Shown: one piece after another, positions 9,585 to 30,372 of the stretch
Layout: the number at the start of each line of letters is the position of its first letter
How positions within the stretch are numbered: the first letter of the stretch is position 1
Source of the DNA: a virus
DNA: 30,372 bases
Reading direction: 5' to 3' (one strand)
IMG/VR virus record: IMGVR_UViG_3300030382_003518
Location: 1-30,372 of that record
The notes under the pieces: model-generated
Seen by the model: only the letters and a program-made list of their open reading frames with translations
Database searches by the model: none
Told to the model about the DNA's origin: nothing
Program-made: the position numbers and the translations under genes

Positions 9585-9640
9585 AATTTAATTTAATTTA
9601 ATTTTATATATATAGTTACAGTTTCAACTGTTTTTTTACA
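9585..9640 (-). promoter_or_regulatory. A/T-rich intergenic leader with a dyad
   Basis: This 56-bp gap precedes the GNAT-cupin gene. It contains a perfect 6+2+6 dyad (ACAGTT-GA-AACTGT on the minus strand, 9618-9631), then an alternating TA run and a leader of repeated TTAAA units ending at the ATG. It could be a promoter or operator, or only an untranslated leader. The stem is too short for a convincing terminator in the gene direction. Confidence 0.3.
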
Positions 9641-14500: not shown

Positions 14501-14919
14501 GCAATAAATTGATTTAAATTATTTACACCGCTAGTACTATTGTATAATCCAGAATATATTAAACCATATTTTCTATGTTCTTCTTTGTAATCTTCAAATA
14601 TGGTTGATACTTTAACTCCTGGGGTTAGTTGTGTTGAGTTAAAAGTATCGGTAATTCTATTTGACTCCACGCCATTACCAAATGAATAACAGTTATGCCA
14701 ATTTAAAACTTTTTTTGTACTATAATTATTAAATATATCTAAACCAATAGTATCACTATAATGACTTGTAGAGGTATTGTCTGGATTTGTAGATACACCT
14801 GCGTTTGTTTCTCGTATTCTAACATAAACAACTTGACCATCTCCACCCTCTTCTATTGAGGGATGGGTGATTTTTAACCAATCACCAGCAAAAATTAATA
14901 TTTGATCAATATCTGGCAT
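11512..14919 (-). CDS. Tail stabilisation/nozzle protein, second (C-terminal) part
   Basis: This 1135-aa protein carries the C-terminal signature of a phage stabilisation/tail nozzle family: NCYSFGNGVESNRI (about 76-89), GLIYSGLYNS, ITKDINPTYGSIQKLH, VLGQAVPFVGEYGISKNPES (about 198-217), YFTDKQRG, then after an insertion IGSYDDRQDEYNLTIH (about 466-481), GWVSFKSFFPE, and KEGKWFNYIKG near 722-732. Residues about 264-462 interrupt this core with a jelly-roll-like segment that includes a calcium-loop-like DTNSNGIPD (426-434). Residues about 750-1110 form a variable beta-rich tail, and the protein closes with GYYAGVKLENNSKYKAEIFS. The start is one base after the stop of the 2208-aa gene, in another frame. 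The core is usually expected downstream of the N-terminal part found in that neighbour, so I infer one ancestral protein split into two genes. Confidence 0.7.
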   Translation of the reverse strand: MPDIDQILIFAGDWLKITHPSIEEGGDGQVVYVRIRETNAGVSTNPDNTSTSHYSDTIGLDIFNNYSTKKVLNWHNCYSFGNGVESNRITDTFNSTQLTPGVKVSTIFEDYKEEHRKYGLIYSGLYNSTSGVNNLNQFIAAEKITKDINPTYGSIQKLHTRDTDLVTLCEDKVLKILASKDAVYNADGNPQLTSTNRVLGQAVPFVGEYGISKNPESFVSEAYRSYFTDKQRGSVMRLSKDGLTPISMHGMKDWFRDNLSTSKVNLLGEDILSSNDNWDIPASGNSYVANGVATLGYYNNDIHDSRYGKVARLRKLNILEIGKKYQLQFDVIEHSGLQHQGTGVGNSSITVVNSIPGGGWISGGFGAVGKTNGEHVNVTWVANRTDFQLLQYQVNTPAGLYTPPGGTQDTVQNYVNAQRIADGWPDTNSNGIPDNNGYSNSSWLYSGIVSIANIVLEEVKVEPKIIGSYDDRQDEYNLTIHSAIPKTISFREDTKGWVSFKSFFPENAISCANDYYTIKNGKLWQHHIQGSKRNTFYNTATNSSVNVILNDIPSSIKSFHTLDYEGSQSRVEGIKNITVNGIVYSNPAGSTHPDGKFFYWKDEEFDTLVDIAKVTLEPTGAGGLGVKGNSSIPIKQYRNNILIWTGLVRVWNDPGNPGSGTYSHGRKLTGYVGGDFEVGDVITTEEQEKTVNHFNSMPKDGWYVSGIETDKQKGNLSEFIEKEGKWFNYIKGIDSEISETTDFGSFDIQGVGIIESTIILSPTVAPIPTGVVVTTIGYQPVVGNTVFLNPPINFDASHVGMNVIDSAGLIPTNTTVASFIPATFAMPAMITLSYPTTTQIPPNTTFTIFATTLTPLPPAPSEHQITFTDNINSSLQIGDTIYFEKPSEVLGLDLIDMSGNLEIQLSNPNTGSPPGPRTVGIGPFTMIDENTVSFNGPWNAIPTYSWGEVGVIFTVPFTIGNVATLFNIIPSENLISGKKYILSLEISNYLGSGEIGVTNNGGVSSNAILTGNGVYTEEFISDGNELSIFSTDSNDGTIQLSVTEIMTGQVFGFTRLESDNIQKAGVVTSLTNNTITIDTTNGTPPSANDYILFSKNQAINTSSLLGYYAGVKLENNSKYKAEIFSLSSEITESSK

Positions 14920-14920
14920 A

Positions 14921-17900
14921 TTATATGTTTATCTTATTTTTAATAATTTCTCTATTTCCTATATAACGACATATTGGAACGCCTATTGCCATTATTAATT
15001 TACCTAATATATTACCATTGTAATTATGTGGCTCTTCTCTATGTGCCATTTCATAAGCCCACGCCACTCCTATTGGTTTTACTAGATGAGTAATTATCTT
15101 AGATTTTCTCATTGCGTTAACAACATGTCCAGACCACTTCCAATAACCTATCTTAGTTGCTATATCCATGTTATTATCTGAATGTTGATAATCTAATTCT
15201 AGCACTTCTCTAGGTAAAAGCCCCTGTTCACATAATTCTGTACATATTATTTTACCACCACCACCAGTACCACCACCACCACCAGTACCACCAGTACCAC
15301 CACTACCACCACCACCAGTACCACCACTACCACCAGTACCACCACTACCACCAGTACCAGTACCACCAGTACCACCAGTGCCACCAGTACCACCAGTGCC
15401 ACCAGTTATAATGGTAGGTACCCATGGTGGCGCGTTACCTGGTGTCCATCCAAAAGACTGTAACCATGCTATATAAACTTCTGATGCTGTTTCTTCTTCT
15501 ACTTGTATATTTTTTGATAAAACAATTTCTTCAGTTTCAGGATTTACTTGTACTACTTTTGTTCCTTGTGGAATAGAATTACTTCCCTCATGTTCTACAA
15601 TAGAATTAATAGGAATTAGTTCGAGTATATTTTCTTTTGTTAACTCTGTATAAATAGGCATAGATCCTGTCGCTTCGTAATACACGTCTAAATCTGCATT
15701 TTCTTTTGGTTTAGTTTCCCAAACAGCTGGATTAGCTGGTAATATTTCTTCTTCTGAACGATTTGATTTTTCTTCCACCCAGTCCCAAGTATATCCTACA
15801 GCATCTGTACCAGTTTTTGTACCACTAATCCCTTTACCATCTCTAAAAAAGTTTAAATTTTTAGCAGAATTAGGACTTAATCCATTCATTGGATATTGAT
15901 AAAATCTTAGTACGTCACCGGTAGTTATATTGCTTGGGGTACCAGTACCAGTACCACTCCAATCATCAGAACCATCATATGTTTTAAAATATATAGTATA
16001 ATCAGAAGTATTTTTAGATATTTTTGATACAATAGCAGGTGGATTCATATCAGTAAAATTATCACCTCCAGCATTATCATATTTTTTTAATACCATACCT
16101 ACAGAAAGTTGGTCTGTACTAGAACTATTTGTTCCATTACCAGTTATAGAATCCACTGTTACATAATTAGTGTTTCCACCACCACTTGTAGCAACTGTTA
16201 ACTCTAAATATTTAGTACCAGTAATCGAGGTGGGTGTTCCAGTTTGTATTGGATTCCAATAATCATTAAAAGCCTTATCAACCCTTATTCTCCAATTTTT
16301 AGTATAATTACTAGGTCTTAAATAGCTACAAGTAGCAAACGTAATACTATCCTCCCCAGCATCTATTTCTGTTTCTAGATGAGATTTATCAACAACTGTT
16401 TCTCCTATAACATTAGATGAAAGACCTCTTGTATTATCATATAGACCACTTGGTTTACCCATAAGAGCTTTTGCGTGAAAAGGAAATATTTGATCAGGAT
16501 CTATTCCATTGCTTCCTATAGGTTTGTTAGCATCATAATAACTACTTCCCCAGCCACTAGCCTTACCAAAATATCCTTCCCTTAAACTTTCGTATCTAAC
16601 TCTTAAAAATATATCAACATCACGAACAGTATATATAGTTTCAGTTGGATCTTCTTTAAATCTAAATTGACTACCTATTGCAATTTGTTTTATGAAGTCC
16701 GCTTCTGATTCAGAGTAATTATAATTTTCTCCAGCTAAATCATAAAAACTTGGATCTGATGTAGCAAATTTTCTACCATCCCAATCCCCACTAATCACAT
16801 CACTTGGTGTAATCCATCTCACAGGTTGAATCCCACCAAAAGAAAGTTCGATTAACGAACTACCTTCTTCTCCACTTGCCCAAGATCTTAACCCCATAGA
16901 GGTCCAACTCGATCTTGAAGGCCAAGTATCCCAACCTACATCATTTCCTGAGATAGTGCTATGGTTAAAATTACCAACATTTATAGCTTCGTCAATAAAC
17001 CAAACATCTTGAAAACTTTGATCTTCAGCAGCGGTATCATCAACAATATCTAGTTTGTCAACTCTATTTTTAATAGCATCATTCCCTAAATATACGTTTA
17101 TGCCTCTAAAATAAGCATCATAATCTCTCCAAACATCTGGATCACGTAATAAATCGTAAACTATATCGTGGCGCTGCTGAGATCTTCTTTTTTTATTATT
17201 TAAGGTACCAAGATTTTGTGTAAATTCACTTGTTGCATCATAGTAAAAATTCCATTTATGTCTAGGGTCGTTTTTATCACTTGATATATTATCATTTAAT
17301 CCAACAGCATTTGACACACTTTGTATATCATAAAATGCTTGAGTAGGATTTGCTTGAGTTTCATCATAATGTTTTTCAATACGATTAGAATCACTATGTG
17401 TTCTCAAAGAATATATTTTACGAGATGCATTCGTACTTTTGTATTCTTTTTTAGTATTATCAACTTTATCTTTTAAAGCTCTTGAAAAAATATCATCATT
17501 ATATATTTTTACAAAAAACCTACCCTCAAATTTATGAGAGGCAGATTTATCTAAAGCAGTTCTATATATATTTAAATATGTGTTGGCTATTATTTTTGTA
17601 ACATTTACACCACTAGGATCGTCAGTAAAAGAATTTATTTCATTAGTAAATGGTTTTTCTAATGTGAATCTCCATCTATCATCATCTTCGGCAGAAGTTA
17701 GTTCATCCGCAAACAACCGTACAATTTTATATCTATCAGAAACTCTATTTGTAGTAGTGTTACTTAAAGATATATGGTATTCTACATCACTGTCTTTACC
17801 AAAATCTTCGTGTAAGTTTGCGTAGGAAGCGCTTTTTATTCGGTTAAAATTAATAGAAAAATCAATATCACCTTCAGTTGGAAGATCAGCGGTGGTAAAA

Positions 17901-20900
17901 AGTCTACTGCCACTATCAGTGGAGTGTTTTTTAGATGCTATTAAGGTTTCCTTTCGTTTTATAAAATCCGGAGCTTCATTTTTTATATCTATTATTTTAT
18001 ATTGAGCTTTTTCTTGTATTACATTACTAAGTTTACCTGTTTTTGGATCTTTAATAACGCTACCAACTCCTTTTTTTAATATCAAAAAATCATCTATATC
18101 TACTTTGTTTCTATCTGTCGATGGAAATGCTAACCAAATATTATCGTCTTCTGCGTCGTAATACCTATCCATAGCTAAATTATAATATTCCCCACCATTA
18201 TCTTTTATGAAAAATTTAAAATATTTCATATTCACCGGGTGTCCTTCGTTGATAATTCGAACTGATAATTGATTTATTCCAGCAGAATTACTTTTATTTA
18301 CTAATGTTGTTGCTGTTTTATTTGTTATAATAGGGGTTTCTCTACCATATTCATCTGAAAAAACAACTCCAACTTGATAATCTCTAAGCGATTTTATAGA
18401 TTTTTTACCAATTCTAGATTTATTTTCTATAGGAACAAGTTGGGGTTCTATTTCTATATCATAATCTTTACTATTTATATTATCTATTAAATTATAGTTT
18501 TGTAAATAATTACCATAAACAATTCTATTACCTACAACTTCTTGTCCTAATGCTTTTTTAGGTACATTATCCCATGGACGTAATAATTGATTAGATGGAA
18601 CAATACCGTTTTTAATTGTTTCATGTGTTATTTTATATGATGCCCACGCTTGATCAACATTTTTTATAGTATCAACAATGTAAATATTTGGGGAATTTTC
18701 TTCTTTATATAATATATCAACCCCTGATACATCTTGTGGTATATTTCGATTATAATCTTTTATTGTTAAAGATTTTATATTATTAGTCATACCTAAATTA
18801 TAACTTTTTTTAGGGTGGTAGTCAAATCCACCAGGTACAAATACTACTTCTGAAAATGGAGAAAAAGCAGAATACTCTCCATCTTCATATTTATATCGGT
18901 AAGCAAATCTAGGAAATTTATATTCAAATAATTTTTCTTCTTCATCTAATAAATCTATCGCATAATTTAAACTTACGTCAGTATCGAGAACACTTGGGGG
19001 AGTACCATCTATAGAATCTATTTTTATTTCAGTTCTCGCTACAGTTTCATCAATTTCTTCCACTGATACGTTACTTATTTTTCCATTAAAACCAGGAGTT
19101 ATCACTTCCCTAATTTCAACCTTTATATCTCCACTTGGGCCTCGTGTAGAACTTATATTATTCGCAGCCCAAGCATATAAATCTATCTGACCACTACCAG
19201 TTGCTGTAAACGTACAGGTTGTTTGTCCTCCAACTCCACTCCAATTATCACTACCCGTTGCTTGAACTGCTTTCACTCCGCTTGAAGTGGTGTAATTAGT
19301 AATGCGTGGTGCGGTCACCCCTGTGTAAGGAACTCCTTGACTTGAACTAACACCTATTCTTTGATTACCACTACCCATAAAACTCATGTTAGACACGGTA
19401 AATGTTAATTCATATTCAGTACCGCTAACCAAATTATAACCATCGTTTTGAACATCGTATAGATAAATAGTTGTTCCGGTGGTGTGAATGCTGTCATCAA
19501 TATGCTGGTTATGAAATATTACTCGTTCAGCGTTTACTACTTCCCATACATTCCACGTTATCACCTGACCCGAAGATGAATGTGCGGGTCCCATACCCGC
19601 GGGCGCGCCGGCATAGTTAGCGTGGATTGCTGTAGGATTCCAAAAATCATCAATACCAATAAAGTTTATTCCTCTGGTAGCACCTCCAGATGTAGATGCA
19701 AATAATATTGAGTTTAAATATAAAGCGTGATTCCAAGTTGACGGACCCTTTGGTATCGGGAGTGAACCAGTTGCATTATAAGTATCATCAAACACAAGTT
19801 CATGTTCAAAATTGCCTGGAGAATCATGCTGACCCAAGGTATAGTAATTACCACTTTGAGCAGGACTAGCCATGCTATTAGAATCGAATAATTGGACTAG
19901 AACTTCACCAGTCATACTATCGTTATCTGGTGGTTCAACACTATATCTTATTTTATAATGTCCTCCTACAACTATATCACGAAGATCATTATTATTAAAT
20001 ACTTTCTTATTAATACTAGCATTACTCCCATCACACGTTAATGTACCCGCAGTTTGATCCCAAGTCCAATTAGACTGAACACCCCAATGATCCGGCGCGC
20101 TACCACTTCCCTCTGACATGTCACCATTATCAGTCAAAAAGAAATTAGCATTTGTAAACCTATTACCTTGCCAATTTGTGATCGTCCCTTTTATTCTGTA
20201 ATTTGCAATCGGAATTGCAGGCGAGTTACCATCAAAATCAAATTCTTTTAATACTACTTTATCACCAGCTTTCCATTCTAAAGTAAAATTATTATTGTTG
20301 TTTATATCTGTTTCTATTATAGTACTAAAAGTATCTCCAACATCTATAAAATTAAAATCATGTATTCGTCCTATAGACGAATTTATAAAAGAATTTGGGT
20401 GATCAATATTATCACTGATTTTAATTATACCAGCATAAGTTTTTGTAACATCTCTAAATGTTTGGTATTGTATAGTTGGGGGATATTTAGGGGATTTTCT
20501 AATAACAGTAGTGTGCTCTTCTTTAACACCTTCCCTATCCGCAATAAGAATATTTTGCGCTTTATTAACTATGTAAGTATTTTGATTACCTTGTGGGTGT
20601 GTACCTTGTATGCTTCGTGGAATATTTATTTTTTTTGGTTCAGAGTTATTATCTGTCCAAAATAATAGATCATCAATTATATTGATTCCAGTAATTAAAT
20701 TATTAGGATCAAGTTTTAAAACAGAATTATTATTATCAACAAACACAGGGGTAACTGTATTTTTCTTTGTGTCATACTGAATAATACGACTACTATCAAC
20801 ACTTTTAACAGATATATTATCAATAGTACAGTTTAACTTGTTACTACTAGTAGTATCCATTCTGTTTTGGAAATAAATATGATTTGGAATATAAGGTGTT

Positions 20901-21547
20901 TTGGAAGCTGTAGAATAAGAAGTGGTAAAATCACTAGCATCTCCAAATTCTTCACCAACGCGAATTACCCATACCCATGGTTCACCACCGTTATCACCTG
21001 TGGCAGCGTAGGTTTGTTGTGGTCTAGTCCATCCACCGTTCTCATCAACAAGAACTGGACTTAAGTCACCAGTACCACTATAATTACTAATTTCAACACT
21101 AACAATATAAGTTCTACCAACACCTATAAACATATTTTGCTTTAACGAATCCCATTTCAATACGTCTGTAGCTGTAACATTATCAGTGCCGTAATTCCAA
21201 CCTCCAGTTCCATCTAATGGATTACCATCATGCGTCCAATCGTCTGCATTACCAGTAAATCCACCATTTGTTATATGTTCTTTATTATTGTTGCTTAAAA
21301 CAAACCAATATAATTTATCATTTTTTTCATCAGAAATACTACCAACACAAGTTGAATCATCACCAATAAATCCTTGCCCAGGAACTATAGAATTACCCAA
21401 TATATTTTGAACAGTACCAACATCAGCGCCTTCTGAGGTTGACACTTGTATATTCATCGCATCCCTATATTCTCCATTTGGAATAAGTCTCTCGTCGAGA
21501 TCCTTATTCATCTTACCACCGGTAAAATTATGCTTAATCTCTGGCAT
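14921..21547 (-). CDS. Giant tail stabilisation/nozzle protein, first (N-terminal) part
   Basis: This 2208-aa protein is the largest complete gene in the window. Its N-terminus (FTGGKMNKDLDERLIPNGEY, then DAMNIQV and VGTVQNILGN) matches the start of phage stabilisation / tail-tubular-B-like proteins that form the nozzle below the portal. The conserved core resumes at about 865-1000 (YKFPRFAYRYKYEDGEYSAF, VDILYKEE) and runs to about 1960 (NPAVWETKPKENADLDVYYE). At least three jelly-roll or carbohydrate-binding-like segments lie within it (about 90-250, 458-640, 690-840). Residues about 2048-2098 are a Gly/Thr/Ser tract. They are followed by a 110-residue C-terminal domain starting ICTELCEQGLLPREV, of a kind I recall at the ends of other phage structural proteins but cannot name. 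The stop is one base before the next gene. Confidence 0.7.
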   Translation of the reverse strand: MPEIKHNFTGGKMNKDLDERLIPNGEYRDAMNIQVSTSEGADVGTVQNILGNSIVPGQGFIGDDSTCVGSISDEKNDKLYWFVLSNNNKEHITNGGFTGNADDWTHDGNPLDGTGGWNYGTDNVTATDVLKWDSLKQNMFIGVGRTYIVSVEISNYSGTGDLSPVLVDENGGWTRPQQTYAATGDNGGEPWVWVIRVGEEFGDASDFTTSYSTASKTPYIPNHIYFQNRMDTTSSNKLNCTIDNISVKSVDSSRIIQYDTKKNTVTPVFVDNNNSVLKLDPNNLITGINIIDDLLFWTDNNSEPKKINIPRSIQGTHPQGNQNTYIVNKAQNILIADREGVKEEHTTVIRKSPKYPPTIQYQTFRDVTKTYAGIIKISDNIDHPNSFINSSIGRIHDFNFIDVGDTFSTIIETDINNNNNFTLEWKAGDKVVLKEFDFDGNSPAIPIANYRIKGTITNWQGNRFTNANFFLTDNGDMSEGSGSAPDHWGVQSNWTWDQTAGTLTCDGSNASINKKVFNNNDLRDIVVGGHYKIRYSVEPPDNDSMTGEVLVQLFDSNSMASPAQSGNYYTLGQHDSPGNFEHELVFDDTYNATGSLPIPKGPSTWNHALYLNSILFASTSGGATRGINFIGIDDFWNPTAIHANYAGAPAGMGPAHSSSGQVITWNVWEVVNAERVIFHNQHIDDSIHTTGTTIYLYDVQNDGYNLVSGTEYELTFTVSNMSFMGSGNQRIGVSSSQGVPYTGVTAPRITNYTTSSGVKAVQATGSDNWSGVGGQTTCTFTATGSGQIDLYAWAANNISSTRGPSGDIKVEIREVITPGFNGKISNVSVEEIDETVARTEIKIDSIDGTPPSVLDTDVSLNYAIDLLDEEEKLFEYKFPRFAYRYKYEDGEYSAFSPFSEVVFVPGGFDYHPKKSYNLGMTNNIKSLTIKDYNRNIPQDVSGVDILYKEENSPNIYIVDTIKNVDQAWASYKITHETIKNGIVPSNQLLRPWDNVPKKALGQEVVGNRIVYGNYLQNYNLIDNINSKDYDIEIEPQLVPIENKSRIGKKSIKSLRDYQVGVVFSDEYGRETPIITNKTATTLVNKSNSAGINQLSVRIINEGHPVNMKYFKFFIKDNGGEYYNLAMDRYYDAEDDNIWLAFPSTDRNKVDIDDFLILKKGVGSVIKDPKTGKLSNVIQEKAQYKIIDIKNEAPDFIKRKETLIASKKHSTDSGSRLFTTADLPTEGDIDFSINFNRIKSASYANLHEDFGKDSDVEYHISLSNTTTNRVSDRYKIVRLFADELTSAEDDDRWRFTLEKPFTNEINSFTDDPSGVNVTKIIANTYLNIYRTALDKSASHKFEGRFFVKIYNDDIFSRALKDKVDNTKKEYKSTNASRKIYSLRTHSDSNRIEKHYDETQANPTQAFYDIQSVSNAVGLNDNISSDKNDPRHKWNFYYDATSEFTQNLGTLNNKKRRSQQRHDIVYDLLRDPDVWRDYDAYFRGINVYLGNDAIKNRVDKLDIVDDTAAEDQSFQDVWFIDEAINVGNFNHSTISGNDVGWDTWPSRSSWTSMGLRSWASGEEGSSLIELSFGGIQPVRWITPSDVISGDWDGRKFATSDPSFYDLAGENYNYSESEADFIKQIAIGSQFRFKEDPTETIYTVRDVDIFLRVRYESLREGYFGKASGWGSSYYDANKPIGSNGIDPDQIFPFHAKALMGKPSGLYDNTRGLSSNVIGETVVDKSHLETEIDAGEDSITFATCSYLRPSNYTKNWRIRVDKAFNDYWNPIQTGTPTSITGTKYLELTVATSGGGNTNYVTVDSITGNGTNSSSTDQLSVGMVLKKYDNAGGDNFTDMNPPAIVSKISKNTSDYTIYFKTYDGSDDWSGTGTGTPSNITTGDVLRFYQYPMNGLSPNSAKNLNFFRDGKGISGTKTGTDAVGYTWDWVEEKSNRSEEEILPANPAVWETKPKENADLDVYYEATGSMPIYTELTKENILELIPINSIVEHEGSNSIPQGTKVVQVNPETEEIVLSKNIQVEEETASEVYIAWLQSFGWTPGNAPPWVPTIITGGTGGTGGTGGTGGTGTGGSGGTGGSGGTGGGGSGGTGGTGGGGGTGGGGKIICTELCEQGLLPREVLELDYQHSDNNMDIATKIGYWKWSGHVVNAMRKSKIITHLVKPIGVAWAYEMAHREEPHNYNGNILGKLIMAIGVPICRYIGNREIIKNKINI
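15255..15406 (-). repeat. Low-complexity Gly/Thr/Ser codon tract
   Basis: About 150 bp are built almost entirely from acc, agt and a few act/gcc units on the plus strand, which read as GGT, ACT and AGT codons on the coding strand (about 50 residues, mostly Gly). Imperfect 9-bp units (accaccagt) recur many times. All units are multiples of three, so copy-number changes stay in frame. The tract links the nozzle core to a C-terminal domain. Confidence 0.95.
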
Positions 21548-21550
21548 GTA

Positions 21551-22888
21551 CTAGTGTTTTATATGTTTAGATTTACCTCGTAATATTTGAGTTAATTCTT
21601 CTAATTTGATATTTGATAATCTTAATTTTGCTGTTCTTATAGCTGCAAACTTATCTTTTTTATAGTATGCTAATTGTCTCCCGCCAACGTTGGCTTTAGC
21701 AGACATGATAGCACAAAGTATAGATTTATACATAGCTTCTTCTGCAAATTTGTGTACTTGCATTTCCGCGTCTGTACCTAAACCATCGCTTATATATTTT
21801 AATATAACTGTTTTTCCAGATATATTAGAACTAAAATGTATTTTTCCAGTATTTTGATCCATATAAAACGAGCCATTAGCTTGAGCATGTTGAGGATCTA
21901 ATCCATATCTTTCGCCTCCAGCTGGCCAATAAGTATCATCTTGATAATCGTCTTGATTTTCAGATGGAGTGTTACCTTTATAAGCGCTCCAAGTATCAGA
22001 TTCAGCTTGCGTTGCATACTCAAGATCATAACAACTTACATTATCTATTGTACCTACAAAATTAGATGGTGGAGTTGTCCCACCACCTCTGCTATCAAAG
22101 GTAAAATTCTTATTAGCGCTCCACATGTTAATAGCCCAAGTTGAGGTTGTTGAAGTATTTACTGTAATATCTTGAGTATAACTACCACTAGTATCTTGCT
22201 TCGTTCCACCTTTATATACTGCTTCGGTAGCAGTACTATCATCAGCTATAAGTATAATTTGAACCGAGCCCTGTACAACGGTAAGATCATAAGAAACTCT
22301 ATAGGTATGTCCAGCTAATATGCTAGTTGATGTTTGATAGATTTTTTTATACAATCCGGCATCAGCATCAACATGTCCGCTATTATTCCAAGTGTATGGC
22401 GCCGCACTAGGATTAGTTAAATTACTTGATGGATTATCACTAGATACTGTCCAATCACTTAAATCAGTATCAAATTCATTATTCGTTAAAATTTCAGATA
22501 TAACATCTCCAGAAGGGTCTTGATTTACTGCTATTGGATTAGATGTTTTAGAGGTGGGATAGATAATGTGCTCGATACCAGCGGAATCACTCCATACTAA
22601 TTTAACATAGTTAACATAATCTTGTGGTAAAGTTATTGTTAATGAAGCTGGTACTTCTAATTCTTGCGATTTAATAGATTTAAAAGTATCAAACGATAAT
22701 TCTTGCATAGCTCTCTGCGCATGGAAAGCTATATCAGCTCTTTTTATTTTAGATATTATTTTATCTTCACCAACGTAAGCAATTTGAAATTGAGTTATAA
22801 TATCATCTAGTGATGTAAATTGATAATTCCCCCAACTACTACTGTCAAGATAATAGTCTGTTTGTGTTATATTATTCAATAATCCCAT
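21551..22888 (-). CDS. Head-tail connector/ring protein with inserted jelly-roll domain
   Basis: This 445-aa protein has conserved flanks and an insertion. Residues 1-118 (YQFTSLDDIITQF, GEDKIISKIKRADIAFHAQR, ELSFDTFKSIKSQELEVP, LPQDYVNYVKLVW) and about 320-445 (FYMDQNTGKIHFSS, VILKYISDGL, EEAMYKSILCAIMSAKANV) read as a continuous connector-type structural protein. Residues about 130-290 form an unrelated segment beginning NNEFDTDLSDWTV and ending FVGTIDNVSCYDL, the outline of a carbohydrate-binding-like jelly roll. The gene begins 4 bases after the 246-aa connector and ends 3 bases before the nozzle gene, the place expected for a ring protein between portal and nozzle. The exact ring position is inferred. 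Confidence 0.65.
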   Translation of the reverse strand: MGLLNNITQTDYYLDSSSWGNYQFTSLDDIITQFQIAYVGEDKIISKIKRADIAFHAQRAMQELSFDTFKSIKSQELEVPASLTITLPQDYVNYVKLVWSDSAGIEHIIYPTSKTSNPIAVNQDPSGDVISEILTNNEFDTDLSDWTVSSDNPSSNLTNPSAAPYTWNNSGHVDADAGLYKKIYQTSTSILAGHTYRVSYDLTVVQGSVQIILIADDSTATEAVYKGGTKQDTSGSYTQDITVNTSTTSTWAINMWSANKNFTFDSRGGGTTPPSNFVGTIDNVSCYDLEYATQAESDTWSAYKGNTPSENQDDYQDDTYWPAGGERYGLDPQHAQANGSFYMDQNTGKIHFSSNISGKTVILKYISDGLGTDAEMQVHKFAEEAMYKSILCAIMSAKANVGGRQLAYYKKDKFAAIRTAKLRLSNIKLEELTQILRGKSKHIKH

Positions 22889-22892
22889 TTAT

Positions 22893-23633
22893 TTATTGTT
22901 TTTCTTGTTGAATTTGAGCGCTTCCTAGACCACCCGCCATTTGTGCTAGTTGTGGTTTTTCAATTGCAATACCAGTAAACGTTAATATTCTGTATACCAA
23001 TTCAGATTCTTCAGCTGCATGTAATTCAAAATCAGTTGATGTATTTGAGTTATATAGTGGTTTGTCGTTTACAACTACATATCCCCAATTTGGTTTTGTT
23101 GGTTTTTTCGTATAAAATATCTGTACTTTATCTACACCATTTTCAGGATAAGGTCGTACTTTTAATATATTATGAATCCCAGCTTCCCCAATAAACCTGT
23201 TATACGTAGGTCTTTTTTTTGACCATTTTGTTAATGGTGATTTTCCATATAACATATTTTCTTCCCAATTGTAATATTCAGCTGTTGCTTCTTCGTATCC
23301 CACATATTTGACTTTTACTCTACCTAATCTATACAAATCAGGTATAACTGTGCTTAATATTATATCACCCCACTCATTATTAATATGTGCATCTGATATA
23401 TATTTTTGAAATAGATCAATTTTTTCTTGCAAATTACTAACCATATCAGAATAAGCATGATTATTACCTGGTACTCTCTTAAATTGATTTAAATCATAGA
23501 AATATTGCTCAAAAATTTCCATTTGAGCTTGATCAGCAAATAAATTAAACTCTTGAGGAGTTATATATCCTCTTTGTTCTTTATTAGCAAATGCTAAAAC
23601 TTTTTGATATACTGTATCTACACTTACTGCCAT
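22893..23633 (-). CDS. Head-tail connector (adaptor) protein
   Basis: This 246-aa protein begins VDTVYQKVLAFANKEQRGYI, followed by TPQEFNLFADQAQMEIFEQY. This helical N-terminus is seen in connector proteins next to capsid and nozzle genes of many marine podovirus-like phages. The middle has YKLG-type beta strands (LYRLGRVKVKYVGYEEATAE, KKRPTYNRF), and residues about 200-230 form a helix. By order it should sit at the portal exit, comparable to T7 gp11 or a crAss-like ring protein. I cannot tell which of these it matches best. It is the first gene after the second terminator, 21 bases downstream of the U-run, with an A-rich leader and no Shine-Dalgarno. Confidence 0.6.
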   Translation of the reverse strand: MAVSVDTVYQKVLAFANKEQRGYITPQEFNLFADQAQMEIFEQYFYDLNQFKRVPGNNHAYSDMVSNLQEKIDLFQKYISDAHINNEWGDIILSTVIPDLYRLGRVKVKYVGYEEATAEYYNWEENMLYGKSPLTKWSKKRPTYNRFIGEAGIHNILKVRPYPENGVDKVQIFYTKKPTKPNWGYVVVNDKPLYNSNTSTDFELHAAEESELVYRILTFTGIAIEKPQLAQMAGGLGSAQIQQEKQ

Positions 23634-23653
23634 AATTTTTTATTATTGTTTTT

Positions 23654-23689
23654 AAAAAAATAGCCACCCCTAAAAAGAGAGTGGCTATT
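23654..23689 (-). terminator. Rho-independent terminator after the 295-aa gene
   Basis: On the minus strand a 9-bp perfect stem AATAGCCAC / GTGGCTATT (plus 23659-23667 with 23681-23689) can extend inward through G-U pairs and is followed by seven U residues (plus 23654-23660). It starts 12 bases past the TAG stop of the 295-aa gene. Confidence 0.9.
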
Positions 23690-23700
23690 CTTTAGGGTTA

Positions 23701-24588
23701 CTACGAATTTAATCGTTTCTCTATATTGGAGTAAATCTCCATTCCTTCATCAGTTTTAAACCAAGCGGCTAAAGCTGAGTAAGGATGTTCGTCAAATGGG
23801 ACGTTCATCAACTTCCTGTCATTACTACCCCAACTGAACGTTCTTTGATCTGAAGATAGTTTTAATATTCCTAATTCTGTTGCTTTGATACCAAAGTTTC
23901 TAAGTTGTACGTTTTCATCTGTTACTAATTCTAAGAATAACTTAGGGTTCCTCTTAGCATATACTAATAAATCTCTTCTTAGCTCCTTAGAACTCATCGT
24001 AGACACCTCAGAGCCTTTTTCTACACGTAGAACCGCCTCCGCCATATCAATATCCAATGATTGAGCTGCTGTTAACGCTTTGATCTCTAATTCTATAACT
24101 TCTACTTCACTTTGAGCTTCAATTTGAGGGTTGTACTCTGTATACGTTTGTTTTCTACCGGGATGATATAAAGATAATAACTTTTGTAACGTTTGTTTTT
24201 CTCTAGTGACGTGTAATGTTCCTCTCCTAAAAATTATATGTGATAATCTTTGATCTCCCTGCATCTCATCAACAAAACAAGTTTGTTGGTTTTCACAATA
24301 CTTTAACTCTCTTTCATACCCCTTCTCTTCATCAAAATAGTAAATACCAGAACTTTTTATAGATCTTGATAACGATCTTTTAGCTTTACCTTTTATAAAA
24401 TAAGTTCTGTTTTTTATTTCCCAACCATCTTCTGGACTAGTTGATTTTGACTTAACTCTTTTTGGTTCTGGAGTTTCCATAACCGGTGTTTCAACTTTTG
24501 GTTGTTTTACAACTTGTGGTGTTTCTACCACTTTTTCTTGAACTTGAGGTTCTTCCACCTCAACTTTTGTTTTTGTTTTTTTTGCCAT
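23701..24588 (-). CDS. Conserved phage protein of unknown function, downstream of capsid gene
   Basis: This 295-aa protein has two parts. Residues 1-50 are a Lys/Glu/Val/Pro-rich low-complexity tail (VEEPQVQEKVVETPQ and similar). Residues about 55-295 form a compact domain with FDEEKGYERELKYCENQQTC, DEMQGDQRLSHIIFRRGTLH, SSKELRRDLLVYAKRNPKLF, a QRTFSWGSNDRKL segment and a PYSALAAWFKTDEGMEIYSN ending. I recall similar proteins next to capsid genes of marine phages, without known function. It is the only gene in the window flanked on both sides by rho-independent terminators, so its dosage is probably set separately from its neighbours. A head decoration, completion or regulatory role is possible but not shown. 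Confidence 0.75.
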   Translation of the reverse strand: MAKKTKTKVEVEEPQVQEKVVETPQVVKQPKVETPVMETPEPKRVKSKSTSPEDGWEIKNRTYFIKGKAKRSLSRSIKSSGIYYFDEEKGYERELKYCENQQTCFVDEMQGDQRLSHIIFRRGTLHVTREKQTLQKLLSLYHPGRKQTYTEYNPQIEAQSEVEVIELEIKALTAAQSLDIDMAEAVLRVEKGSEVSTMSSKELRRDLLVYAKRNPKLFLELVTDENVQLRNFGIKATELGILKLSSDQRTFSWGSNDRKLMNVPFDEHPYSALAAWFKTDEGMEIYSNIEKRLNS

Positions 24589-24618
24589 AATATAATATAT
24601 AATAAAATTAATAAAAAT
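24589..24618 (-). promoter_or_regulatory. A/T-only leader of the 295-aa gene
   Basis: Thirty bases separate the capsid terminator from this start codon, all A or T. The last fifteen bases up to the start (TATATTATATTATGG) are identical to those before the scaffold-like gene at 27384. There is no Shine-Dalgarno. The shared motif may act in initiation. It does not contain both halves of a Bacteroidota promoter. Confidence 0.4.
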
Positions 24619-24650
24619 AAAAGGACCGAGGCCGAAACCCCGGTTCTTTT
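24619..24650 (-). terminator. Rho-independent terminator after the capsid gene
   Basis: The minus-strand RNA folds as AAAAG-a-ACCG-g-GG, loop UUUCGG, CC-u-CGGU-c-CUUUU, with one A/C mismatch and one G-U pair, then a U-rich run (UUAUUUUUAUU). It begins 9 bases after the TAA of the capsid gene. Confidence 0.88.
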
Positions 24651-24659
24651 AAAAATTGC

Positions 24660-26165
24660 TTACTTCATTAACATGAAGTTGTTAGCACCTTGAGTAACTA
24701 AACATCTTTCAGATAAGAAATGCATTTGCATTGCATCTAAATCAGAAGTAGTAGCACCAACCGAACCAGTGGTCCAAGTTTTCATCTTTCTACTTTCTGT
24801 TGCAGAAGCTCTATAACGAACATGTAAGAAAGGACGTTTAAGATTCTTTCCTAAGGTTTGATCATAAACTGAAGATACACCTGCTGGAATAAACACTCCA
24901 CGAACCGCGTCAGAAGTAGCAGCGGTATTAATACCACCTCTAGTAGCATTATCGTTTAAGTATTTCCAGTCAGTTTTGTAGAAGTCATAAGACCCACGTC
25001 TGAAACCAGAGAAACCTAAATTAAGCGCCATGTTTTCTGAGTTGTTGAATACTCCGTAAGAAGTACCGCCAGCTCCGTAAGAATTCATTGAAGCTAACAT
25101 ATCATCAACGGCTAACGAAGTAGCTCTGTTTACGAACATCATGTTTTCTTCAATAGAACCTTGCGTATCAAATTCTGCTAAGATAGCGTCGAATTCTGCT
25201 AAATCAGTAGCTGCGTTAACACCAGTTACACCTGAAGTTACATTACCTCTACTTTCGATAGCTGCGAATAATCCTTCAGAACCACCAGGAGTACGACCAG
25301 ACGAGTAATAAGCAGTATCGTCAGTTGCACCTGCATCGATAATATGAGATTCAGCGTTCACGTTCTCAGCTTCAATACACATCATTTCCACGTAGTCGTT
25401 GAAACGTTGATTAACATCGCCAGCGGCTTTTAAATACCACAAGTAACCATTTTGTCCATCTTCACCTGTAATTTCAACCCAACCAATTTGAGAAGCATCA
25501 GATCCAGAGATCTCATAGTAATCTTTCATAATGATTGGTTTGTTTCGTTGAGAAGTGTGAGTTGGTTTTGAAGCTTTGCTATCACCAGTTCCTAACGTAA
25601 GACCACCTAATCCAGTTGAACCTTTTTCCCAGTCAGAACCAATAACTACAACTTGCGTATTTGCTAGAGTAGCACTTGATCCGTGAAATGGGGAATCAGC
25701 CCAAGTTTCTTCAGCGTAAGGTATAATAGTAACAGCCGCGCCGTTAACTAATACAACCTGACCAGTACCTGACCAACCTGCGTTAGCTACTAGACATACG
25801 TCATATAATCTCATACCATGATTAGCAATAGTATAACCATCACCTGATACATTTCCATCAGAATCACTAACTACTGTAAAAATATTTGTATTTGTTACTA
25901 ACGAACCTATACACGCGATGTGTAACCTACCTTGTTCTGACCAAATAACTTGGTCTGAGGACATAGCCTCTTCTGCACCGACTTGCTCTAAGAACCCTGA
26001 GACTGTTCTGTTTCCAAAAACCTCAGCTTCTTTTTCCATCAAATCAGGCAGATATTGTTGTTCCCATCCGGTTGAACCGTCACGGAAATCTATGTAATTT
26101 GTTTTTAACGTCTGCTTCTGTGAAGCTGGCGTGTTATTCAAATTAGTTCCTGCTGTAATTGCCAT
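24660..26165 (-). CDS. Major capsid protein
   Basis: This 501-aa protein begins with NNTPASQKQTLKTNYIDF, then QQYLPDLMEKEAEVFGNRTV and VGAEEAMSSDQVIWSEQGRL, a pattern I associate with major capsid proteins of marine podovirus-like phages. Length and position (portal, scaffold, then this) fit an HK97-fold shell protein. Residues about 90-190 form a beta-rich, Gly/Val-rich stretch that may be an insertion domain on the capsid surface. The C-terminal half holds helix-rich segments (FDAILAEFDTQGSIEENMMF) and the ending RCLVTQGANNFMLMK. A strong terminator sits directly downstream, consistent with a heavily transcribed gene. The codons are visibly less AU-biased than in the tail genes, with more GCT, GAA and GGT, also consistent with high expression. 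Confidence 0.8.
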   Translation of the reverse strand: MAITAGTNLNNTPASQKQTLKTNYIDFRDGSTGWEQQYLPDLMEKEAEVFGNRTVSGFLEQVGAEEAMSSDQVIWSEQGRLHIACIGSLVTNTNIFTVVSDSDGNVSGDGYTIANHGMRLYDVCLVANAGWSGTGQVVLVNGAAVTIIPYAEETWADSPFHGSSATLANTQVVVIGSDWEKGSTGLGGLTLGTGDSKASKPTHTSQRNKPIIMKDYYEISGSDASQIGWVEITGEDGQNGYLWYLKAAGDVNQRFNDYVEMMCIEAENVNAESHIIDAGATDDTAYYSSGRTPGGSEGLFAAIESRGNVTSGVTGVNAATDLAEFDAILAEFDTQGSIEENMMFVNRATSLAVDDMLASMNSYGAGGTSYGVFNNSENMALNLGFSGFRRGSYDFYKTDWKYLNDNATRGGINTAATSDAVRGVFIPAGVSSVYDQTLGKNLKRPFLHVRYRASATESRKMKTWTTGSVGATTSDLDAMQMHFLSERCLVTQGANNFMLMK

Positions 26166-26190
26166 TTTGTTTTAATTTTAAATTGTTAAT

Positions 26191-27384
26191 TTACTTTTTG
26201 TTTTTCATTCTTAGCTTATTGCCTTGAATTTTGTACTTAAAATCATTGGAATCTTCACCTAACACTCTTACTTTAACACCGCCTGCTTCAATAGTTCCAT
26301 GGGCTTGCCTTGGATCCATATTCACGTTTTTGGCTTTAGCAACACTATCTTTCATAGCATCTGCTTTTCCTTGTTCGTAAAAGTGACTAGCAACAGCGTC
26401 AGCGTTCATTGCTGTAAATAGAGATTTATGATAACCCTTAGCATCCTTTAAACCCATTTTTTTATCCAAAAACTTTTTGGTAAAATTGTTTAAATCACTT
26501 TGGGTGTTTTTAACCTCTTCAGCATTATTTACATTAAACCTGTATCTTTTATCACCGACGTTATATTCAAAACCTTTGAACTTGTCGTTAAAAACTTTAT
26601 TAGTTTTTTGCGTAAAAATATCAGAATTAGTTTTTGCTGCTTTTTTAGTTACCTCTGATTCCTTGTTGTATCTATTAAAGAAATCAACTGCTTTTTGTTG
26701 TTCTTGGGTCAACTTTGACCCAGCTTTGATATCTTCATAGTATTTGGACTTTTGCCCGTCCAGATGGGCTTTAGCGCTGGCAACTTGCTCTTTTAACGCT
26801 AATTTCTTTCTACGTATATCTCTTTCTTCGTCCATATCTTCGTCGTAAGAGAATGTGTCTTCCATAAGGAAGTTAATTTCTTCTGTGTTTAAATGAGGTT
26901 TTGTTTGTTTATAATATTCATATAGTAAATCGTTATCTTCTAACTTACTATAATCTTGATTAAGTTTAACATAATCATTTAAATCACCACCGGTTTCTTC
27001 CATAAAATCCATTAGTTTTTGGATATTTTCAGGAATTGGTTTTCCAGTGGCTTCAGCTTCAGCAACAGCTTCTTCAACTTGCTCTTCTAATTCTTCAACT
27101 GTTTCTTCTTCTGTAATTTCTTCTAAAACAGGTGTTTCAGTATCTTCTTCTGTAGATTCGTTAACAACCTCTTCTTTACTAGTCGTTTCTTCAATAACCT
27201 CTTCTTGAACATTCTCGGTTTCTGTGTCATCAACTGGTTGTTCATCTTCTTTTTCTTTTGGTGGTTTACTTAAATCTACTTTAGTTACGCTATCATCTCC
27301 AGCGCTTTCAAATTTGTTTTCATCAACTTGTTCAGTTGATTCTTGTGTAGTTTCTTCAACTACTTGTTCATCTTTTTCTTCCAT
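26191..27384 (-). CDS. Probable scaffolding protein
   Basis: This 397-aa acidic protein lies between portal and capsid genes, the usual site of a phage scaffold. Residues 1-110 are extremely Glu/Thr/Val rich (EEVIEETTSKEEVVNESTEE) and probably disordered. Residues about 110-330 are charged and helical (FMEETGGDLNDYVKLNQDYS, KLALKEQVASAKAHL, FFNRYNKESEVTKKAAK). The last 50 residues turn basic (GGVKVRVLGEDSNDFKYKIQ, then RMKNKK), suited to binding the capsid or portal as scaffold C-termini do. No protease motif is seen, so removal of the scaffold, if any, would depend on another gene. The assignment is by position and composition. Confidence 0.6.
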   Translation of the reverse strand: MEEKDEQVVEETTQESTEQVDENKFESAGDDSVTKVDLSKPPKEKEDEQPVDDTETENVQEEVIEETTSKEEVVNESTEEDTETPVLEEITEEETVEELEEQVEEAVAEAEATGKPIPENIQKLMDFMEETGGDLNDYVKLNQDYSKLEDNDLLYEYYKQTKPHLNTEEINFLMEDTFSYDEDMDEERDIRRKKLALKEQVASAKAHLDGQKSKYYEDIKAGSKLTQEQQKAVDFFNRYNKESEVTKKAAKTNSDIFTQKTNKVFNDKFKGFEYNVGDKRYRFNVNNAEEVKNTQSDLNNFTKKFLDKKMGLKDAKGYHKSLFTAMNADAVASHFYEQGKADAMKDSVAKAKNVNMDPRQAHGTIEAGGVKVRVLGEDSNDFKYKIQGNKLRMKNKK

Positions 27385-27414
27385 AATATAATATAATAAT
27401 AATTAATAAAAAGT
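27385..27414 (-). promoter_or_regulatory. A/T-only leader of the scaffold gene
   Basis: This 30-bp gap between portal and scaffold genes reads as A and T apart from the first residues after the portal stop. It ends in TATATTATATTATGG at the start codon, like the leader at 24589. There is no Shine-Dalgarno. Confidence 0.4.
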
Positions 27415-29835
27415 TTATCTAGGGTCAAATGCACCTAAATCAAATCCACCACCTAGTATATCATTACCTGCGGATTCAAAGTTTTTAGGTGGCTTGCCAC
27501 TATTTCTTTGTTCAATCATCTCTGATTGTTGTGTTGCTTGTATTTTTGTTCTTTCGTCTTTACGATCTTCTTTTTGTCTTTCTCTTTCCTTCACACCGTC
27601 AACCTCAATTCCTTTAAGTTGCATGTTGTATTGAAATTCTAAAGCCATTAAATCTTTTTTATGCATAACTTCTTGTTGCATTTTTTGAGAATCAATTTGT
27701 GCTTTCATTTGTTCTAACTGACCTTCAGCTTGAGTTTTGGCTTGATTTTTTTGCATTTCCACCTGAGCAGCAGCTTGAGCCGCTTGGGTATTAGATTCTG
27801 TTTGGGCTCTAATATTTTCGAGTTGTAATTGCCTATCAGTTTCTTCTTTTCTTTTTCTACGTATTTTTAAAAGTTGATTAGCAAGTTTAATATTCTTAAT
27901 TTCTCTAAGATCAATAGCGTCTTCAAGTTCTATATTTTGTTGCTGCAATGCCATTTGGATATTATTCTCTAACAATTGCTTTTCTTCTTCATCTGGTTGT
28001 AATTCTATAAATATACCAAAATCATATAAATGTAAATTTTTCATTTCATCTAATGTTGCTACATTATGTGCTCCAATAGCTTGGATAAAAGCATCTTTAG
28101 TGGGGGAATATTCTATAATATCAGATATTCTAAGTGATAAACATTCTGCGATTTCTGCAGTTAAAAATAATCCAGATTGTAATATATGTCTTGTAGCGGT
28201 GTTAGAATTTGCTGCGGCAAGTTTTTGAACACCAACTAAAGCGTTTTTATCTGGCATACTACCATCTCTAGCTTCGTTTAATCCAGTGACATCCCTAATC
28301 ATTTGTAAATAATAATTATAAGTACCTATTAAACTTTGCATTTTTTGTCCTCCAGATCCTGATTGTATTTCTTGAATAGGTACTTTGCCAGGATTTAAAT
28401 CACCGTCACTAGTAAACGATCTACCTATAACACTACCAGTTTGGAAGAACATGTTTAAAGCTTCTTGTGGATTATAGTTAGTTCCATTACCTAAATCTAT
28501 TTCAGCTAAACCGTCTGCATCTAAATAAACGCCATCTGGTGTTAATCTTGACATTACTTGTTGTAATTTCAAATGTGTTAACTGAATCATATCAGCAAAA
28601 CTAGTAATTCTACCAACTAACGATTCAATTTTACCATTATACATTCTAGGTGCAACAATAGCATAATTCATCTTAACTTTTGTAAAATCACTTTTAGGAC
28701 GCATCATATTTTTTGCCATCTCCCATCTAAGTAATGTATCTGTACCAAGAACTATAGCACCATCATATAAACATTCTATAGATTTTGACAATTTAGAATA
28801 TCCACCTTCCATATTTTTAGGTGGATTAAATTTATCATCTTTAGATATGATTTTGTCAGCTCCAGTTCCAGTTTCTTTCATCTTATAAACTTCATTCATG
28901 TAAGTTTTATAATTAAAGTATAAGACTTGGATCGTGTTGTTATCTTCTTTATCTATAGAATATCTTGTAGTATTATTATTCCTATTAAACGATTTGTTTT
29001 TCATTATATCTTCAAGTTCTCCTTGAGATAAATCAGGAAATTGTTTAATTAATTCATTTACTGGAATAGATTTTACTTCACCTACGTAATATATATCTTC
29101 AAAATAAGGAGAATCAGTATATGAATATACAAGATTTGCGGGATCAACATAATCGATAACAACTCCTTCTGATGTATTAAATGATGTTTTTGCTGCACCT
29201 ATACCTAGAACAGTTAAATCATAATAAAACTGTTTCTTTATAAGTTCATATTTATTACCTTCAAAAAGAGTATTTAAAGCTTGTTCTTCTGCTAATTCTA
29301 TGGATTGCTTGTAAGTTAACTGCATATGAAGTTGTAACTCTTCACTTGACTCTGGTAACTCCATATCTGTATTCTCCCTCGCATTAATACCAGTAGCTTC
29401 TGTAACTTGTTGATCAAATACTTGGAGTTGCATATCATTAAGTACAGATTCCATATACTTAGTTCTTTCTTTAACCCCAAAAGGATCTTGAGAATAAGCC
29501 TTTATATCATATGTTCTTTCCGCGATACCATTAACAACTATATCTACAAATTTAGAAATTATTGGAACTGGTGTCCAATCTAAATTAAGATAGGACAAAT
29601 CACCGTTAATTGATAACTCATCCTTATATTTTTGAATAGATTGCTCGCCTCTAGCGTACAATCTTAATTTATGAAAATTATTATGATTAGTTGTATACCT
29701 ATTAAGACTTCTATCATTATTAAACCATTCAGTCTCAATAGCTTTAGCCACTTTTAAACCGTATTCTTCACTAAGCTTTTCAGTATCGCTTACGGTTTGA
29801 CTTGGGAAATAACTTTTAATGCCAGACTCTGCCAT
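27415..29835 (-). CDS. Portal protein
   Basis: This 806-aa protein has the length of large podovirus portals and lies directly after the terminase. The N-terminal part includes LSYLNLDWTPVPIISKFVDI, then VVNGIAERTYDIKA (about 82-115). A helical region and VVIDYVDPANLVYSYTDSPY with EDIYYVGEVKSIPV follow (about 225-260), a typical portal wing pattern. Residues about 500-560 hold PIQEIQSGSGGQKMQSLIGT and VTGLNEARDGSMPDKNALVG, which likely belong to the stem and crown region. Residues about 640-770 are a Gln/Lys/Glu-rich coiled coil, expected for the barrel reaching into the capsid. The start ATG lies 5 bases after the terminase stop, behind TAATAAAT. The family match is from memory, but the context supports it well. 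Confidence 0.8.
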   Translation of the reverse strand: MAESGIKSYFPSQTVSDTEKLSEEYGLKVAKAIETEWFNNDRSLNRYTTNHNNFHKLRLYARGEQSIQKYKDELSINGDLSYLNLDWTPVPIISKFVDIVVNGIAERTYDIKAYSQDPFGVKERTKYMESVLNDMQLQVFDQQVTEATGINARENTDMELPESSEELQLHMQLTYKQSIELAEEQALNTLFEGNKYELIKKQFYYDLTVLGIGAAKTSFNTSEGVVIDYVDPANLVYSYTDSPYFEDIYYVGEVKSIPVNELIKQFPDLSQGELEDIMKNKSFNRNNNTTRYSIDKEDNNTIQVLYFNYKTYMNEVYKMKETGTGADKIISKDDKFNPPKNMEGGYSKLSKSIECLYDGAIVLGTDTLLRWEMAKNMMRPKSDFTKVKMNYAIVAPRMYNGKIESLVGRITSFADMIQLTHLKLQQVMSRLTPDGVYLDADGLAEIDLGNGTNYNPQEALNMFFQTGSVIGRSFTSDGDLNPGKVPIQEIQSGSGGQKMQSLIGTYNYYLQMIRDVTGLNEARDGSMPDKNALVGVQKLAAANSNTATRHILQSGLFLTAEIAECLSLRISDIIEYSPTKDAFIQAIGAHNVATLDEMKNLHLYDFGIFIELQPDEEEKQLLENNIQMALQQQNIELEDAIDLREIKNIKLANQLLKIRRKRKEETDRQLQLENIRAQTESNTQAAQAAAQVEMQKNQAKTQAEGQLEQMKAQIDSQKMQQEVMHKKDLMALEFQYNMQLKGIEVDGVKERERQKEDRKDERTKIQATQQSEMIEQRNSGKPPKNFESAGNDILGGGFDLGAFDPR

Positions 29836-29840
29836 ATTTA

Positions 29841-30372
29841 TTATTTGATTATTTGTGAATTACTCCCTGTATTTTTATACTTGGAAATATGTATGTTTAA
29901 TTTCGGTTTTTCTACTTTTGCATTTGGAGCATATAAATGCCTATTGTTTGCCATAATTGCTAAACCTGAACTAATAGACGCATCAAACTTTGTACGTTTA
30001 TTTATATCAAATCTAGACCAATCATTTAATAGATTGTTAAAGTATAAATCTCCAAATGTCCCATCTTGCTTCATACCCACGTGATCTTGAATATACATTT
30101 CAATAGCCGCTGCGTGGGCTTGTTTTATATCTTCGCTAGAGTTAGGGATTCCTCCAACTTCTTTTTCTGCTACAGACAATTTGTTCCATATTTTGTCTGG
30201 CCTGTTCATACTAAACCCTCTATAACCTCTTCTTCTAAGATAATATAGTAATCTAGGTTTGTTATTCTCTGCTAATATTGGCATACCATAAAATACTAAA
30301 GCCATTAAAACGTCTTCAAAGAATATTTCAGCCGTAGGTGGTCTTGATAAGTATTCTAAAAAAAAGCTATTA
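29841..30372 (-). CDS. terL: Terminase large subunit, C-terminal end (partial, N-terminus beyond right edge)
   Basis: The frame is open to the right edge, and the first ATG inside the window (30305) is internal, because 22 sense codons precede it (SRPPTAEIFFEDVLMALVFY). The visible 176 residues resemble the RNase H-like nuclease of large terminases. An E in ILAENNKPRLL (codon at 30269-30267) fits the second acidic ligand, GYRGFSMNRPDK follows, and the D in TKFDASISSGLAIMA (codon at 29984-29982) fits the third. The ATPase domain would lie beyond the window. The protein would cut and package the phage genome through the portal encoded next. Adjacent position to the portal supports the call, though the catalytic assignment is by analogy. 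Confidence 0.72.
   Translation of the reverse strand, partial: NSFFLEYLSRPPTAEIFFEDVLMALVFYGMPILAENNKPRLLYYLRRRGYRGFSMNRPDKIWNKLSVAEKEVGGIPNSSEDIKQAHAAAIEMYIQDHVGMKQDGTFGDLYFNNLLNDWSRFDINKRTKFDASISSGLAIMANNRHLYAPNAKVEKPKLNIHISKYKNTGSNSQIIK

Follow-up and report, generated by a model that had tools for sequence, protein, structure and literature searches.

A conserved post-capsid hairpin, an A/T box and a phage sigma gene in a marine clade related to the gut crAss phages

The major capsid gene of this virus, a marine relative of the gut crAss phages, is followed directly by a terminator-like hairpin, and the explanation favoured here is that a capsid unit with its own transcription ends at this locus. 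Throughout the clade of the virus the hairpin is conserved, the host promoter box TAnnTTTG is lost around the capsid operon, and a conserved A/T box, nearly unique to two sites, abuts the start codons of g397 and g295. Across records the type of promoter before g397 is linked to the presence of a phage sigma gene.

The capsid locus and its hairpins

The window, i.e. the whole stretch of DNA analysed, is a virus record of 30,372 bases. The genes of interest all lie on its minus strand, in the order terminase C terminus, portal, g397, capsid protein, g295, g246, g445 and large virion genes (Table 1).

Table 1. Features of the capsid locus in the window
Feature	Position	Strand	Evidence or remark
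Site D, A/T box abutting g397 start codon	27385-27414	-	Fills almost the whole portal/g397 gap
g397	26191-27384	-	First gene of the capsid unit; crAss001 gp31 position by synteny
Major capsid protein gene	24660-26165	-	phrog_13704, 4e-93; Cellulophaga phage Calle_1 relative annotated major capsid protein
T1 hairpin after capsid gene	24618-24651	-	G+C core 24625-24644
Site A	24589-24622	-	T1 T tract continuing into the A/T box (24589-24614); box adjoins the g295 start codon
g295 (295 aa)	23701-24588	-	crAss001 gp33-family protein; directly 3' of capsid gene
T2 hairpin and T tract after g295	23655-23693	-	Fold
Site B, short A-rich stretch before g246	23634-23654	-	Without TAnnTTTG and without TGTRACTAT
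g246, opens downstream virion-protein run	22893-23633	-	phrog_14543, 6e-33, virion structural protein

Relatives were collected by tblastn with the capsid and g295 proteins, each of which matched 85 annotated phage records (68 Flavobacterium, 15 Cellulophaga, one Maribacter and one unclassified), and by scans of IMG/VR, which gave 80 loci of the window's clade and 80, 79 and 5 loci around ctfjg026, elemo and phi38:1, respectively. Based on the best g295 reference, 253 loci were binned into the groups w (the window's clade, 84), ct (its freshwater sister clade, 137), el (25) and ph (7), and duplicates were collapsed before counting. One contig bearing a window-type capsid gene (L274) comes from a record titled Maricaulis sp. 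MAG; its filing under an alphaproteobacterial MAG is perhaps a binning error, since the other host links are Bacteroidota.

The hairpin-g295-hairpin arrangement described in an earlier note on this DNA, and its coordinates, were borne out by folding and gene calls. T1, in the 71-nt gap between the capsid gene and g295, has a folding energy of -17.1 kcal/mol (z -3.8), and T2, in the 67-nt gap between g295 and g246, one of -20.6 kcal/mol (z -4.9); in neither case was any of 200 shuffles equally stable. Eight of the nine bases directly 3' of the G+C stem are T in both, and both have the form of an intrinsic (rho-independent) terminator, a G+C-rich hairpin followed directly by a T tract. Four other gaps of at least 20 nt are present in the window (7652-7693, 9585-9640, 26166-26190 and 27385-27414); the last three were folded and no strong hairpin was seen in them, in keeping with the claim that g295 is the only gene lying between two terminators. 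The A/T-only run that had been noted between T1 and the g295 start is present, with a length, T tract included, of 34 bases rather than 30. A simple terminator scan of positions 12000-30372 found T1 and missed T2, the stem of which is bulged, and a search of Rfam returned two matches with E values up to 1, both far under the gathering scores.

For the comparison among relatives, a terminator was counted where a hairpin of -8 kcal/mol or better was accompanied by a T tract. The T1 hairpin was found in 70 of the 71 unique w sequences and, together with a T tract, in 63 of them, against 4.2 expected from shuffles; the corresponding counts were 88/91 in ct, 15/15 in el and 3/3 in ph (4.4, 0.8 and 0 in shuffles). 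Since the cores differ widely, with 33 kinds among the 70 w hairpins, it is the structure that has been kept and not the sequence. The regions 3' of g397 and g246, which served as controls, held a hairpin with T tract in 0/78 and 0/60 cases. What is conserved at T1 is a boundary of the capsid operon, and it is not peculiar to g295.

The second hairpin was tabulated for gaps of 45 to 450 nt. It was present in all 72 unique w sequences, frequently with a TACG or TTCG cap and followed by A-rich sequence, and a T tract accompanied it in 20 (2.2 expected from shuffles), the window being among this minority; in ct, 77 of 99 T2 sequences were terminator-like. Because only 20 of the 72 w hairpins keep the T tract, T2 is no conserved insulator, and the insulation of g295 by two strong terminators that had been proposed from the window is not general. 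Between T2 and g246 many clade loci (L003, L013 and L020 among them) carry a small Cys-containing ORF, which starts KSKGLGDTIEK and ends CGCNKRK...FPYK and which the window lacks. In two freshwater loci (L158, L160) a small Lys-rich gene with a terminator-like hairpin on either side lies between the capsid gene and g295.

The crAss-like phages provided a second test. In crAss001, gp31 precedes the capsid gene gp32, and the 71 nt between gp32 and gp33 contain a hairpin and a T-rich run; a hairpin also lies 3' of the capsid gene in phi14:2. A g295 homologue follows the capsid gene directly in these two phages and in 8 of 10 further crAss-like records, and 8 of those 10 have a strong hairpin in the gap between the two genes, with a poor T tract in several Suoliviridae. 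In FpV4 and cr113_1 an endonuclease gene lies between the capsid gene and the g295 homologue (L415 3980-4762 and L424 3881-4480, annotated as HNH and GIY-YIG endonuclease genes), and the strong T1 hairpin is missing from the gap in both. The crAss001 gp31-gp32-gp33 segment and the capsid neighbourhoods of other Crassvirales thus resemble the window in gene order, in the g295 homologue (gp33) and in the post-capsid hairpin, and they have a promoter box before gp31. Unlike the window's clade, crAss001 carries the host box TATCTTTG before gp31, at site D, and has no sigma gene; it also lacks T2, gp33 and gp34 being 4 nt apart.

Host promoter box, A/T box and phage sigma gene

In F. psychrophilum the box TAnnTTTG is located at -12 to -5, with a median 5' UTR of 24 bp, as reported in PMC9723704, and the same box is described for F. 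johnsoniae in PMC6847099. The box, which forms the -7 element of the Bacteroidota primary sigma promoter (-33 TTTG / -7 TAnnTTTG), was counted in the final 60 nt 5' of each start codon over unique gaps, site B gaps longer than 400 nt being excluded. At site D it was present in 63/64 ct, 11/11 el and 4/4 ph sequences, as opposed to 8/76 in w, where 7.4 are expected by chance. The counts at site A were 13/80 in ct, 8/9 in el, 0/3 in ph and 0/71 in w, and those at site B 86/92, 12/13, 3/4 and 0/70. The relatives thus have this promoter at D and B, and some groups at A; in the w clade the box is above chance at none of the three sites, and in the window none was found 10-50 nt upstream of g397, g295 or g246. 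In elemo phages it starts 7-8 nt after the terminator T tract, and terminator and next promoter therefore form one compact unit. The earlier note had held that the connector and ejection genes depend on readthrough or on another start; such a start is present after T2 in the relatives, as the site B counts show, and the window is without it. A sigma-70 promoter scan of the window gave 88 sites against 88.7 expected, i.e. no signal.

What the w clade has at sites D and A is an A/T box. Conservation within the capsid/g295 gap, compared over 80 related loci, is highest in the 26 nt before the g295 start codon, and in w this stretch amounts to 43.0 bits (48 unique sequences). The final 26 nt 5' of g397 amount to 39.7 bits (72 unique sequences), the conserved block at site D being confined to about this length, and those of the capsid gene and g246 to 30.8 and 20.9 bits. 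A general start-codon element was considered and rejected, as the box marks two genes and the capsid and g246 leaders differ. The g295 matrix was run over seven sequences (six contigs and the window), and in all seven its two top-scoring separate sites were A and D. The pattern TTAATT-N(0-8)-TATATTATATTATG gave 21 matches in 13 of 20 records, with at most two per record and none for the reversed control; it was derived from w, so its absence from the five annotated phages of the set is descriptive. When the g397 matrix was used, site A scored below an intragenic site on the plus strand in two sequences, the window and contig G001; the uniqueness of the box therefore rests on the g295 matrix and the fixed pattern. 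No conserved -35 element was seen at the box. Within genomes, the likeness of the D and A boxes over 17 pairs showed no difference (7.0 vs 7.3 mismatches). A block-1 likeness between TTAACTAT and TGTAACTAT was also noticed.

In one 68.7-kb w contig a 252-aa protein matched sigma-70 regions 2 and 4 (Pfam, 1e-5 and 3e-5; NCBIfam sigma70-ECF, 2e-16; phrog_351, 2e-20). The gene was found in 5 of 12 w contigs, the seven without a match all being fragments of 42-55 kb; none of the 14 contigs from ct, el and ph had it, nor did any of six annotated phage records. It is also present on a 63,395-base contig of a Sphingobacteriales MAG that bears the same capsid gene. A sigma scan gave 37 loci; 28 of 35 further contigs had g295, and the other seven were 5.6-45 kb long. 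In these 28 contigs TAnnTTTG was present at D in 1/27, at A in 0/28 and after g295 in 0/28. The window is a 30-kb fragment with the early region outside it, and no sigma gene is in view. On one 79,494-base contig (L292 and L294) the sigma gene lies near both ends, a sign that the assembly may overlap itself or be terminally redundant. A crAss-type phage RNA polymerase was looked for in six clade contigs and the window and rejected, by the weak test that neither DFDGD nor NADFDG occurred in long ATG ORFs; loose D-x-D-G-D matches were in unrelated proteins.

The Crassvirales extend the link between sigma gene and promoter type. Absence of the host box was seen first in six Suoliviridae, and the sigma search carried out afterwards was positive in all six. 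Five Suoliviridae have an A/T-rich stretch that abuts the g397 start codon, with no host box nearby, and cr130_1 has neither the host box nor that exact A/T motif. The sigma search was negative for FpV4, DAC17, Dulem virus 41, phi14:2, crAss001 and ProJPt-Bp1. In a joint tabulation, TAnnTTTG within 50 nt of g397 was found in 1 of 39 sigma-bearing records vs 22 of 23 records without sigma, ProJPt-Bp1 being the single one that lacks both. This tabulation leaves out one sigma-bearing and three sigma-less records whose D site was unreadable, the seven w contigs without a sigma match and the seven sigma contigs without g295. The link draws on two lineages or more; the Fisher p of 1.5e-14 overstates the support and is not a fair probability, because the records within each lineage are related.

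Proposed transcription of the locus and alternatives

According to reviews of crAss-like phages, the host RNA polymerase probably transcribes the late genes, and a term search of their main text found no mention of sigma factors or promoters (PMC7886860, PMC10136315). We propose that late in infection polymerase with a phage sigma would start at site D and yield a g397-capsid message, most of which would be ended by T1, and that g295 would open a new unit from site A, 3' of the T tract of T1. In the w clade one box replaces the host promoter box at both D and A, and it would most likely be read by host RNA polymerase carrying the phage-encoded sigma-70 factor; capsid and g295 would then start together late, with their levels set separately. 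T2 would be a weak or decayed block, and transcription reading through it from site A would supply the connector and ejection genes. Three points of this account are inferred from the sequence comparisons: termination at T1 in vivo, promoter activity of the box and its recognition by the phage sigma. That the A/T box starts g295 through a phage sigma-70 factor is, in our estimate, an evenly balanced proposition.

Of the two readings offered earlier for g295, a leaking T1 or a compact promoter, the latter has gained support, as the box is conserved and recurs only before g397, at site D, where almost every relative that is not of the w clade has a canonical host promoter. Against a promoter, the box abuts the ATG and so requires a nearly leaderless message; if TATATT (-11 to -6 from the ATG) is the -10 element, an almost leaderless message is indeed predicted, and leaderless messages make up 5.5% in F. 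psychrophilum in the account of PMC9723704. The existence of other candidate promoter motifs in the clade also counts against it. One of these, TGTRACTAT, showed a modest excess in clade records and none in controls, and after T2 it was present at 5 of 20 loci with a T tract vs 0 of 50 without, the five being close relatives. The longer form TGTRACTATA is placed 28-36 nt upstream of one late gene in each contig, and in some clade members it also follows T2. In the window it is found at 9611-9620 (-), before the gene of a 368-aa protein (8478-9584, -) with a GNAT acetyltransferase-like N terminus and a tail-fibre adhesin-like C terminus, and elsewhere, for example, at G001 36273, G004 31563 and G007 20536. 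The other motif, ACAAACTAAATACGA-N9-GATAATAT, has a strict 9-nt spacer and occurs on one strand, mostly 23-67 nt before short genes, with 7, 7, 6 and 2 matches in four contigs (L089, G002, G003 and G007 being those concerned), a few of them intragenic; it is a candidate early promoter or operator.

The most serious alternative, though a rather doubtful one, is that the A/T box is a message leader that aids translation of g397 and g295, with g295 itself promoterless and transcribed by readthrough of T1. The box adjoins the ATG without spacing, and in ct, where no sigma gene was found in the contigs searched, D and A likewise have a common, pentamer-like A/T leader (mean alignment score 18.2 vs 13.7 for shuffled A, and 13.9 for site D vs the capsid leader), so that the w box could be a modified leader acting in translation. 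TAnnTTTG is missing from 67 of the 80 unique ct site A gaps, which makes readthrough the simplest source of g295 there and to that extent favours a leaking T1. Initiation in F. johnsoniae is favoured by A at -3, -6, -12 and -13 according to PMC6847099, however, and the box is T-rich and without A at -6. It also marks only two genes, and a leader would leave the w clade without a capsid promoter at D, where nearly all other groups have one. The promoter and leader readings may both be true.

It is unlikely that the host sigma reads a degenerate promoter after T1 such as TAATTTTA while the phage sigma serves other genes. A string of this kind, resembling the -7 box with one mismatch from TAnnTTTG, does lie about 15-22 nt before the ATG in the site A box, and phi38:1 and Panino have TAACTTTA and TATTTTTA at the same place. 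One-mismatch strings are, however, common in A/T-rich DNA, the full box with its conserved G is found in none of the 71 site A gaps, and site D reads TAATTATT instead. It is highly improbable that the hairpins are 3'-end or processing structures of the mRNA and not terminators. The 52 of 72 w T2 hairpins without a T tract, often UNCG-capped, would suit such a role, but the T tract that accompanies T1 in 63 of 71 sequences would not, nor would the terminator-like T2 of ct (77/99), after which the host box follows in 86 of 92 unique gaps.

The preferred reading, a start at the A/T box read by a phage sigma, can be extended to two late regimes in crAss-like phages and their marine and freshwater relatives. 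In one the host sigma would act at TAnnTTTG; in the other the phage would use its own sigma, the host box having been dropped at the capsid operon, and the capsid and post-capsid messages would start almost at the AUG from the abutting A/T-only box. We put this forward tentatively, with the balance somewhat against it.

The g295 protein and comparison with known systems

Profile searches place g295 in the crAss001 gp33 family. The g295 profile matched crAss001 gp33 with 1.5e-9 (search of 9 proteins), phi14:2 gp101 with 2e-5, and all 10 of 10 further crAss-like post-capsid proteins searched, with values from 2e-9 to 4e-5. Matches in a viral model library were to proteins of phi14:2, crAss-like viruses and an Azobacteroides phage. 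The homologue was labelled RecA by the depositors of six crAss records and dsDNA-binding domain in crAss001; in phi38:1 and phi14:2 it is annotated hypothetical, and its neighbours are annotated as structural. In a structural model (mean pLDDT 87.3) the N terminus is charged and disordered, and the fold is confident from residue 61 onwards. Residues 226-295 were comparable to the RecA C-terminal domain (Z 7.4, 58 residues, 1.9 A), a middling score; Foldseek returned nothing below E 0.59 with the model, and the one match of the profile to sequences of solved structures (E 0.019) was judged to be chance. The term gp33 does not occur in the portion of the crAss001 virion atlas that was covered. 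The simplest guess is a non-virion role in assembly or DNA handling, with the protein made at a level differing from that of the capsid.

In phage T7, genes 11 and 12 come from readthrough of the terminator after gene 10. The T7 capsid unit closed by this terminator may be regarded as the nearest known analogue of the capsid unit described here: in the phi10 - gene 10 - Tphi arrangement the terminator likewise stands immediately after the major capsid gene, and the later morphogenesis genes are kept at a lower level, as described in PMC5592923. The systems differ in that T7 employs a single-subunit phage RNA polymerase and its gene 11 has no start of its own, whereas here a host-type polymerase is assumed and a conserved box lies between the terminator and the next gene. 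For the proposed start, the nearest known analogue would be the T4 late promoters with the sigma-like gp55, which have a -10-like element and no conserved -35 (as outlined in PMC7892883) and which, on the promoter reading, would share with it these traits and a phage factor of the sigma-70 family. The factor described here has regions 2 and 4 and showed no kinship to gp55 in the tests run, and the box, unlike the T4 late promoters, abuts the start codon.

Phage sigma factors are already known, as are terminators placed after capsid genes; the link between sigma gene and promoter type and the A/T box were not found in the limited open-licence literature searched. The link provides a concrete account, open to falsification, of how late genes are transcribed in phages that abound in the gut and the sea, and the 26-nt element is a defined target for testing it. 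The putative stop signal directly 3' of the capsid gene is a conserved design in the group.
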